This document shows, piece by piece, positions 18,952-23,420 of a stretch of DNA of 64,000 bases; position 1 is the stretch's first letter, and each line of letters begins with the position of its first letter. The DNA is from Oscillatoriaceae cyanobacterium M7585_C2015_266 (GTDB lineage: Bacteria; Cyanobacteriota; Cyanobacteriia; Cyanobacteriales; Oscillatoriaceae): assembly GCA_015295835.1 (NCBI GenBank), contig DVEG01000015.1, positions 1-64,000 of the forward strand, given 5' to 3'. Position numbers and translations under genes: made by a program. The notes beneath the pieces were generated by a model. The model was given only the letters and a program-made list of their open reading frames with translations, was not told where the DNA came from and ran no database searches.

Positions 18952-19191
18952 ACAGCTCTTCCTCAATGCAGACTTACAAGCACAGTGTGACTCAAGAATT
19001 CTAGTTGGTCAAGTTATAGTTTTGAGTGAGTTTTTAAGTGATAACTTTTCTTTTTAAAGTAAGGTTTTTATTTTTTTACAATAGCCATTACTGCTAAGCC
19101 GATAAATACGTCGTGTCAGCCTTTTTGCAACAGACAATTTTAAAACTGGTGCGATCGCAATTTTTTTATCCTGATGCCGCCGCCGTTTTTG

Positions 19192-19217
19192 TGAATCACT
19201 GAGCAGTAAGTGATTCA
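19192..19217 (+). promoter_or_regulatory. Perfect 9-bp inverted repeat at the ribosome site of the PatX-like gene
   Basis: TGAATCACT (19192-19200) and AGTGATTCA (19209-19217) flank the 8-bp spacer GAGCAGTA. The right arm abuts the AAAGG ribosome site (19217-19221) and the start codon lies 14 bases beyond. It could be an operator for a dimeric regulator, or a hairpin in the mRNA that limits ribosome access. Confidence 0.6.
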
Positions 19218-19231
19218 AAGGTTAATTTACT

Positions 19232-19618
19232 ATGCGCATCTACAATATTGCTTTATCCGGTTTTTTGCTGGCTGGCAGCACGGTTTATTTTGCGTATTTT
19301 AATACTCCCGCTTATTCTCAATCTTCTACTTCCAATACCAACTCTCATCTATTAATAGCTCAGCCATGCGACAACCATAAAGGCAGCAATGAACGCTGCG
19401 AAAATACTCAGGATATTATACAACAACTTTTAGCAAAAAATCAAACCGAAAATGACGAAGAAACAGCTCACCGTGGCAGTGGGCGCAAAGAAAAACAATC
19501 AGCTTTCAAGCAATTCTTAACTGCTCAAGACACAACTGAACAAAAACAAGCCCATCGCGGGAGCGGACGCAAAGAACAATCGTCTTTACCTGGGAAAAAG
19601 TACAGCGCACAAGCGTAA
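19232..19618 (+). CDS. patX: PatX-like precursor with two RGSGR pentapeptides
   Basis: The 128-residue product has an N-terminal signal peptide (residues 1 to about 29, ending AYS-Q) and a polar mature part. The pentapeptide RGSGR occurs at residues 81-85 and 109-113, both times as AHRGSGRKE. RGSGR is the HetR-binding signal of PatS, HetN and PatX; the family layout of PatX is an export signal followed by C-terminal H-RG(S/T)GR. PatX with HetR is known from filamentous cyanobacteria whether or not they make heterocysts. The two copies differ at several synonymous sites (CGTGGCAGTGGGCGC against CGCGGGAGCGGACGC), so selection seems to act on the peptide. One copy is followed by a linker with Lys that may be a processing site. 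No hetR is in the window. An inverted repeat overlies its ribosome site. The naming is from motif and layout, not from a search. Confidence 0.82.
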   Translation: MRIYNIALSGFLLAGSTVYFAYFNTPAYSQSSTSNTNSHLLIAQPCDNHKGSNERCENTQDIIQQLLAKNQTENDEETAHRGSGRKEKQSAFKQFLTAQDTTEQKQAHRGSGRKEQSSLPGKKYSAQA

Positions 19619-20863: not shown

Positions 20864-20993
20864 CCCCTAGATAAATATGTTCTAAAATAAGTCTCTAGTC
20901 GCCTATAACCCTCTCATGCTATGATTTCTAGGAATTTTCAAGTAAATGAAGTCCGAGGGGCTTCTGACCCATTATAGGAGACAAAAGCTTTTT

Positions 20994-23420
20994 ATGACCA
21001 GCAGTTACGGCGCCGAACAGATTCAAGTTCTGGAAGGTCTTGAGGCTGTCCGAAAAAGACCGGGAATGTACATTGGTTCAACCGGGCCACGAGGACTCCA
21101 CCATCTAGTTTACGAAGTTGTAGATAACTCAATCGATGAGGCGCTAGCTGGCTACTGCACCCACATTGAAGTAGACATCAATGCCGACGGTTCCGTCACA
21201 GTCACCGACAACGGGCGAGGTATTCCTACCGATATTCACCCGAAAACCGGAAAATCAGCACTAGAAACAGTGATGACAGTTCTCCACGCAGGCGGAAAAT
21301 TCGGTGGCGGCGGCTACAAAGTTTCTGGAGGATTACACGGAGTCGGCATATCGGTAGTAAACGCCCTATCGGAATGGGTAGAAGTCACTGTCTGGCGCGA
21401 GCAAAAAGTATATAATCAGCGCTATGAACGTGGTAAACCGGTAAGTGAGCTAAAATCCGAGCCATACAAAGAAAATCGCACCGGCACATCGGTAAGGTTT
21501 ATGCCGGATGCGGAGATATTTACTACTGGCACAGAATTTGATTACAATACTCTAGCAGGTCGTCTGCGAGAACTTGCTTATCTGAATGCAGGGGTTAAAA
21601 TTACTTTTACCGACTACCGCCTGGAATTGCTCAAAAGCAATACGCCAAGGGTAGAAACATATTGCTATCAAGGCGGTATTCGCGAATATGTTGCCTACAT
21701 GAATGCTGATAAGCAACCGCTGCATGAGGAAATTATTTACATACAGGGGGAGCGCAATAATATTCAAATAGAGGTGGCGCTGCAATGGTGCGTTGATGCC
21801 TACACGGATAATTTGCTGGGTTTTGCAAATAATATCCGCACTATTGATGGCGGTACACACTTGGAAGGGTTGAAAACAGTGTTGACGCGGACGATAAACG
21901 CGCTCGCCCGCAAACGTAACAAGCTTAAAGAAAACGATGCTAACCTCGGCGGCGAAAATATCCGCGAAGGCTTAACAGGAGTAATTTCCGTTAAAGTACC
22001 CAATCCGGAATTTGAAGGGCAAACTAAAACTAAATTAGGTAATACTGAAGTAAGGGGAATTGTTGATTCCCTCGTCGGCGAAGTATTGACGGAATATCTA
22101 GAATTTCGCCCTAATGTCGCCGATGCGATCGTGGAAAAAGCTATTCAAGCATTCAAAGCCGCTGAAGCAGCTCGCCACGCTCGTGAATTAGTGCGGCGCA
22201 AATCTGTACTGGAATCTTCGCCGTTGCCAGGAAAATTGGCAGATTGTAGTACGAAAGATCCTTCAGAATCTGAAATTTTTATCGTAGAAGGTGACTCGGC
22301 AGGGGGTTGTTTTGCAGGAAAAACTAAAGTCGCTTTGGTAGATGGGCGCTGCTTGAGTTTTCTGGAACTGATTGCTGAACAAAAACAAGGAAAAGAACAT
22401 TTTGGTTATACTATTCGTCACGACGGCACGATTGGTATCGAGCGGTTACTGAACGTGCGCAAAACCAAAACTAATGCAGAGGTTATTAAGGTTACTTTAG
22501 ATAACGGTGAGGAGATTATTTGTACTCCCGAGCACCGTTTTATGCTACGGAATGGGGATTATAAGCAGGCTAAGGATTTAACTGATAATGATTCTTTAAT
22601 GCCTTTTTACGGTAAAGTTTTTGGTACTCCTGAGCAGAAAATAACAGTCGATGTAAGTCCAGCTTTAGCAACTGTTCAGAATTACAATCATCGAATTGTG
22701 TCTATCGAGGCAGTCAGTGAAAAAATTGATGTTTACGATTTAGAAGTGCCCGCAACCCATAACTTCGCTTTGGCTAGTGGCGTTTTTGTCCACAACAGCG
22801 CTAAACAAGGTCGCGATCGCCGTTTCCAAGCTATCTTACCTCTACGTGGTAAAATACTCAATATCGAAAAAACCGATGACGCTAAAATCTATAAGAATGC
22901 AGAAATCCAGGCTTTAATTACCGCTCTCGGTTTAGGAGTAAAAGGTGAGGAATTCGACCCCTCACAATTGCGCTACCACCGCATCATAATAATGACTGAT
23001 GCTGATGTAGATGGCGCTCATATACGTACTTTACTTCTTACTTTTTTCTATCGCTATCAACGAGCGCTCGTGGATCAGGGGTATGTATATATAGCATGCC
23101 CTCCCCTATACAAAGTAGAGAGGGGACGCAATCACCAATATTTTTACAGCGATCGCGAATTGCAGGAGTATCTGCGGCAACTACCCCCCAATGCCAACTA
23201 TACCATTCAGCGATTTAAAGGGTTGGGCGAAATGATGCCAACACAACTGTGGGAAACAACCATGAATCCAGAAACCCGCATCCTCAAGCAGGTTGAAATT
23301 GAAGACGCTGCAGAAGCCGATCGCATTTTTACAATACTTATGGGCGAGCGCGTTGCTCCCCGACGCGAGTTTATCGAAACTTACGGTCCTAAACTCAACC
23401 TCAAGGATTTAGATATTTAA
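20994..23420 (+). CDS. gyrB: DNA gyrase subunit B, interrupted by an in-frame intein
   Basis: The precursor is 808 residues; removing the intein leaves 645, a normal cyanobacterial GyrB length. It holds the GHKL ATPase domain ([32 protein letters not shown]), the transducer domain and the TOPRIM domain. The intein sits inside the TOPRIM motif [15 protein letters not shown], so the enzyme cannot work until splicing. GyrB with GyrA introduces negative supercoils with ATP. I start at ATG 20994 ([15 protein letters not shown]) since this matches GyrB N-termini; an upstream in-frame ATG at 20946 would add 16 odd residues. TAGGAG lies 14 bases upstream, a long but usable distance. A strong terminator follows. 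Confidence 0.96.
22308..22796 (+). other. GyrB mini-intein (163 residues, no homing endonuclease)
   Basis: It starts with Cys1 ([10 protein letters not shown], block A), has block [11 protein letters not shown] with the TxxH residues, block [17 protein letters not shown] and block G VFVHN with the penultimate His and terminal Asn; the +1 residue is Ser. All splicing residues are present, so it should be active. The site, between GDSAGG and SAKQGRD, is the same as in the known Synechocystis GyrB intein, which carries a homing-endonuclease region between the two splicing halves. Here only about 35 residues separate block B from block F, so no endonuclease fits. The coordinates run from the Cys1 codon to the Asn codon. 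Confidence 0.95.

Follow-up and report, generated by a model that had tools for sequence, protein, structure and literature searches.

In the window, the whole 64,000-nucleotide stretch analysed here (positions 1 to 64,000 of contig DVEG01000015.1 from Oscillatoriaceae cyanobacterium M7585_C2015_266), we find a gene that most likely encodes a PatX-type precursor carrying several predicted inhibitory peptides per molecule, and that appears, on sequence grounds, to be its family's long patX paralogue, unlinked to hetR. The gene and its upstream region comprise the following features:

19169–19174, + strand: DIF1-like −35 box TCCTGA (published DIF1 is TCCGGA), recognised by position and by recurrence in patX loci
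19192–19217, no strand assigned: dyad TGAATCACT-8-AGTGATTCA, a possible operator, centred on the predicted transcription start
19217–19221, + strand: AAAGG, possible ribosome-binding site, read from the sequence
19232–19618, + strand: patX-type gene, 128 aa, from the ORF translation and the NCBIfam PatX match
19232–19318, + strand: signal-peptide-like N-terminus, residues 1–29 (...TPAYS), from sequence and relatives, with the cleavage point judged by eye
19376–19396, + strand: HKGSNER, a probable decayed third motif copy, from alignment with relatives and spacing
19466–19492, + strand: copy 1, AHRGSGRKE (RGSGR at 19472–19486)
19550–19576, + strand: copy 2, AHRGSGRKE (RGSGR at 19556–19570)

The first-pass annotation described a 128-residue protein with AHRGSGRKE twice, 28 residues apart, and both the coordinates and the translation agree with this: the copies lie 84 nt (28 codons) apart and are the only occurrences of RG[ST]GR in the six frames of the window. 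Its further suggestion that the peptide rather than the DNA is constrained also stands, as the two copies differ at 6 of 27 nucleotides, every one of them a synonymous third-position difference, an outcome seen at a frequency of 6.5e-5 when six differences were placed at random (200,000 trials). The predicted signal-like hydrophobic start (MRIYNIALSGFLLAGSTVYFAYF...) aligns with the N-termini of the relatives, as judged by sequence. PatX-like identity holds by a narrow margin: the whole protein scores 31.5 bits against the NCBIfam PatX model (cut-off 30), summed over two stretches, and in a six-frame genome search with the same model the gene appears as a single stretch of 21.1 bits, below the cut-off. 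A Pfam search of the 128-residue protein returned no convincing family (best E 0.035, below cut-off). Because the PatX score is marginal, membership rests equally on the motif, the promoter and the relatives. Upstream of the two intact copies, HKGSNER aligns with the relatives' first HRGSGR and lies 31 residues ahead of copy 1, from which we infer that a third motif copy has probably decayed; together with L017, a PatX-like and motif-free paralogue in the same genome, this indicates that the copies are not all essential.

With PatX (NCBIfam NF047413; Anabaena/Nostoc PCC 7120) the window gene shares a small product, a signal-like N-terminus, the RG(S/T)GR motif, a putative DIF1-type promoter near the start codon and the presence of hetR in the genome. 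It departs from PatX in its TCCTGA box, its lack of hetR linkage, the dyad over its predicted start and a host genome without nifH over the cut-off, and it has two motifs, probably three at one time, whereas PCC 7120 PatX is reported to have one RGTGR. HetN likewise contains an internal RGSGR and is a larger, enzyme-like protein. The arrangement recalls yeast alpha-factor and animal neuropeptide precursors, in which a signal peptide is followed by tandem short peptides with variable spacers; this analogy is one of architecture and implies no homology, and HetR, the presumed target, is intracellular. PatS has RGSGR and the role of HetR inhibitor in common with the predicted peptides, but its product is 17 residues long, is probably both synthesised and cleaved in the cytoplasm (PMC12756182) and bears a single motif, at the C-terminus (PMC7761841), in contrast to a 128-residue precursor with a signal-like start. 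As a separate observation, PatX proteins at the f2 loci L066–L068, L070–L077 and similar ones terminate exactly at RGSGR, like PatS.

Within the taxonomic family, PatX-like matches occur in all eight genomes, two to four in each, and the six-frame search yielded a match above the PatX cut-off in seven, the host genome being the exception. Each of the eight also has one long tandem-motif paralogue, with two motif copies in the host, three in G001–G004, five in Oscillatoria princeps RMCB-10 (G005) and six in Oscillatoria sp. PCC 10802 (G006) and Oscillatoria sp. Prado101 (G007), and these paralogues combine variable linkers with a constant motif. The earlier question of whether two motifs are usual is thereby answered for the family, whose long members all carry tandem copies (two to six). 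The first-pass annotation had counted homologs that keep the rest of the protein and lose RGSGR against its reading; we found this pattern in L017 of the host genome and in L025 and L026 of relatives, which are PatX-like, have a signal-like start and a patX-type promoter and lack the motif, but not in the seven long relatives. Synteny backs the orthology of the long paralogues only in part, since, among five long loci compared by eye, the divergent aldehyde dehydrogenase found near the window gene recurs at L019, is present as a piece further off at L087 and is missing from the neighbourhoods of L016, L088 and L089. The window also contains gyrB (20946–23420, + strand), with an in-frame intein splicing domain at protein residues 476–617.

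The 3.98-Mb host assembly (35 contigs, 98.5% complete) contains the hetR gene that the first-pass annotation had proposed to look for: a single match, G000:C27:2746-3642, of 299 aa and 599.1 bits (cut-off 489), which can be aligned from end to end with HetR proteins of known structure. Its residues 250–256, which we take to be the stretch contacting the PatS peptide, read RVLEELD; of two HetR sequences of known structure compared with it, one has the same seven residues and the other departs at residue 251 only. The best match to the nifH profile in the host genome reached 219.9 bits, below the cut-off of 394.35 that was exceeded in 3 of 14 control genomes; no nitrogenase reductase was thus found, the genome seems unable to fix nitrogen, and heterocysts are unlikely in this organism. 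All seven relatives have a hetR-adjacent, single-motif patX (L007, L008, L010–L013 and L021). The hetR-linked patX of the host is a wreck, at about 125–260 of L001 (G000:C27), that keeps its promoter and has lost start codon and frame: ATA stands at the start-codon position, a stop follows at codon 18, the N-terminal remnant resembles L008, and the 3.2-kb wreck locus contains no RG[ST]GR in any of the six frames. The RGSGR sources found in the host genome are the window gene and the single-motif L009 on contig 8 (27.8 bits, below the PatX cut-off).

A DIF1 box no more than 69 nt from the start is reportedly part of how the 2018 PatX study defined the gene. The TCCTGA of the window has one mismatch to TCCGGA and lies at −63 from the start codon. 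In 66 of 94 patX loci (19 of 25 own-family loci and 47 of 69 others), a TCCNGA precedes the assigned ATG by 58 to 69 nt; these counts are approximate because the wrong start codon was assigned at several loci (e.g. L032, L073, L085, L086 and L095). TCCGGA makes up 37 of the 66 boxes, with TCCTGA as the main variant among the others, and the loci without TCCNGA in this interval have a one-base variant in many cases and a misassigned start in some. A purine-rich core, for example TAGAA, lies about 35 nt after the DIF1-like box, and in a previous study DIF1 precedes the patS start point by 35 bp (PMC7377430). Applied to TCCTGA at 19169–19174, this spacing puts the predicted transcription start of the window gene near 19204–19206, which coincides with the centre of the dyad at 19204.5. 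The inverted repeat recognised by the first-pass annotation is thus present, but its placement at the ribosome site does not hold, as it overlaps AAAGG by its last base only; centred as it is on the predicted start 35 nt after the DIF1-like box, it would belong to the promoter instead.

The window dyad is a possible operator. Shuffling the mononucleotides of the 45-nt region 100 times never gave a dyad as good, and part of the own-family promoters have dyads with different arm sequences. Perfect dyads comprise nine pairs at the window gene, L007, L012 and L021, eight at L019, L020 and L022, seven at L008 and six at L003, L006 and L014; imperfect ones are found at L010, L011 and L013, of which L011 and L013 beat shuffles weakly (12 and 11 of 100 equal). 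At 11 of 25 family promoters (L002, L004, L005, L009, L015–L018, L023, L025 and L026) the ungapped dyad score does not exceed chance, with 24 to 100 of 100 shuffles equally good, and for this reason we dropped a family-wide conserved operator. An RNA hairpin was likewise rejected: RNAalifold found no consensus pair in 18 family promoters, and the left arm, given the near-constant 35 nt between DIF1-like box and purine-rich core, falls upstream of the predicted start and would hence be untranscribed. The z-scores from folding single RNA sequences were mixed, and at f33 loci most were close to zero. A promoter model built from 18 family sequences had four matches with E <0.01 among the 150 of 1252 host-genome candidates scored, namely the window gene, two other patX-like genes and the patX wreck, all four of which are in the model; the wreck promoter scored best (42.3 bits), and the next match among the same 150 candidates had E 0.078. 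The f45 loci L092, L096, L100 and L104 have longer promoter inverted repeats with GGGG-type arms, which presumably resemble half of the HetR site.

Tandem genes are not confined to this family. Among 388 genomes surveyed in the order, the NCBI PatX model has matches in at least 194 and a long-gene profile in at least 43 of the same number, many of the latter single-motif; by locus reading, four further families of the order contain tandem genes with three to four copies (f32), four (f12, L118), two (f2, L137) and eleven (f9), the last being L069 of G015, a 206-codon frame with 11 RGSGR copies. A second profile has matches in at least 25 of 388 genomes of the class and led, besides the window, to 16 tandem loci among L092–L111 (14 in f45 and two in f48) with two to nine copies, 14 of which have hetR downstream on the same strand. 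These genome scans scored a capped number of candidates per genome, for example 7 or 8 with the two long-gene profiles, so some genes may have been missed. As both long-gene profiles favour tandem genes, we also surveyed, with less bias, the DNA ahead of hetR, up to 2.5 kb of it, in 80 of 195 hetR-matching genomes. This sample was hand-picked from the hetR matches listed, largely on the basis of genus and outside f33, a large family, rather than drawn at random. A motif-bearing ORF was present in 61 of these 80 regions (60 by a hydrophobic-start filter, plus L206 with three motif copies), and in four of the 19 misses the upstream DNA was shorter than 1.2 kb. Tandem genes were found in 11 of 11 f45 genomes, 1 of 24 f48 genomes and 0 of the remaining 45, so that in f45, which belongs to another order, every one of the hetR-linked patX genes examined is tandem.

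Altogether, 43 distinct tandem genes carry 2–11 copies: two copies in five genes, three in 14, four in 11, five in six, six in three, eight in one, nine in two and eleven in one. The two-motif precursor that the first-pass annotation singled out does have its two motifs, yet it is no oddity but one case within this range. Repeats are spaced 28–54 residues apart in f1, 26–32 in f32, mostly 11–12 in the f9 gene, 10–24 in the f45 genes measured and 10–12 in f48, and this difference between families would fit separate expansions. Thirteen tandem genes were scanned from f45 and f48, and every one scores below the NCBI threshold for PatX; among other tandem genes, the f9 gene scores 23.3 bits, below the cut-off, and L006 (69.1) and L065 (98.4) pass.

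We propose that the DIF1-type promoter, with the dyad over its start site, would drive transcription of the window gene, that the precursor would be exported by a Sec-dependent route, and that proteolysis outside the cytosol, carried out by PatP in Nostoc, would release one (H)RGSGR peptide per copy, hence two HRGSGR-type peptides here. Uptake by the same or neighbouring cells may then block HetR and so damp the processes under HetR control in a filament that lacks heterocysts, and copy number would set the peptide yield. For Nostoc PatX, one study reports that export is required, that PatP cleaves the protein and that HRGTGR binds and inhibits HetR, the cleavage sites having been mapped in an E. 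coli reporter (PMC12756182). We consider it probable that the window precursor carries the HetR-inhibiting peptide in tandem and acts on HetR. The PatX score, the synonymous-only divergence, the long paralogues in eight of eight family genomes, the hetR linkage of the f45 and f48 tandem genes (14 of 16), the promoter-model matches and a full-length host HetR with RVLEELD at 250–256 all support this, whereas the marginal two-stretch nature of that score, TCCTGA in place of TCCGGA, the decayed HKGSNER copy and the motif-free L017 speak against it.

We also considered whether, in filaments that form no heterocysts, the peptides of a PatX-type precursor have a target different from HetR. In a study on Leptolyngbya BL0902, the effects of PatX on transcription of gene groups 2 and 3 are described as basically HetR-independent, a patX-hetR double mutant resembling the patX mutant for these groups (PMC11298460). 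On account of this work we rate HetR-directed action as probable and no higher, and regard a different target as unlikely though worth keeping in mind; the hetR linkage of the tandem genes and the agreement of host HetR residues 250–256 with the solved sequences argue against it.

It is much less plausible that the repeats are not released singly, and that we see either an exported protein that stays unprocessed and may be multivalent or a repeat that drifts. Tandem repeats readily expand and contract, and decayed copies exist both here and in L081–L083 (GNGR, GNGQ), but RGSGR stays constant while linkers vary between families, and of the 179 copies in the 43 tandem genes, 162 are followed by I, V, L, F or K, residues that make up 425 of 2257 linker positions. 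Of the 49 single-motif hetR-linked survey genes, 21 have R after the motif, 10 end there with a stop and 15 continue with I, V, L, F or K. Because the copies within a gene are not independent, we treat this contrast as a lead only, which may hint at cleavage specificity. That the gene is an ordinary leftover, a paralogue heading for loss, is hardly credible. In its favour, the hetR-linked patX is wrecked, the genome is 4.0 Mb compared with 6.4–8.6 Mb in the six relatives at least 95% complete, and one motif copy has decayed; against it, the frame is intact, the promoter matches and the motif copies have diverged only synonymously.

PatX itself, and its presence in filaments without heterocysts, were already known. 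We found no description of PatX with multiple RGSGR copies in the literature searched; the main 2018 PatX study may contain one. The present work adds, on solid ground, a survey of copy numbers, the finding that the PatX model misses all 13 tandem genes scanned from f45 and f48, the wreck of the hetR-linked patX and a revised placement of the inverted repeat. Surveys of patX that rely on a profile cut-off may accordingly undercount, given that none of those 13 genes passes; in this context, a survey of 474 genomes reports patP and hetR with neither patX nor all2656 in 12.0% (PMC12756182). Beyond the HetR-directed action of the window precursor, we tentatively suggest, as a possibility that we hold with less than even confidence, that exported poly-peptide precursors with 2–11 copies of the HetR inhibitor evolved repeatedly and set inhibitor dose in the absence of heterocysts, in several families and in every sampled f45 member, where the PatX model is mostly blind. 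The role of hetR and patX in species without heterocysts has been called a mystery (PMC11298460), and the naturally occurring precursors, which range from 1 to 11 copies, offer a ready test of dose. If the suggestion is true, changes in copy number would let evolution adjust the gain of an ancient activator-inhibitor pair.
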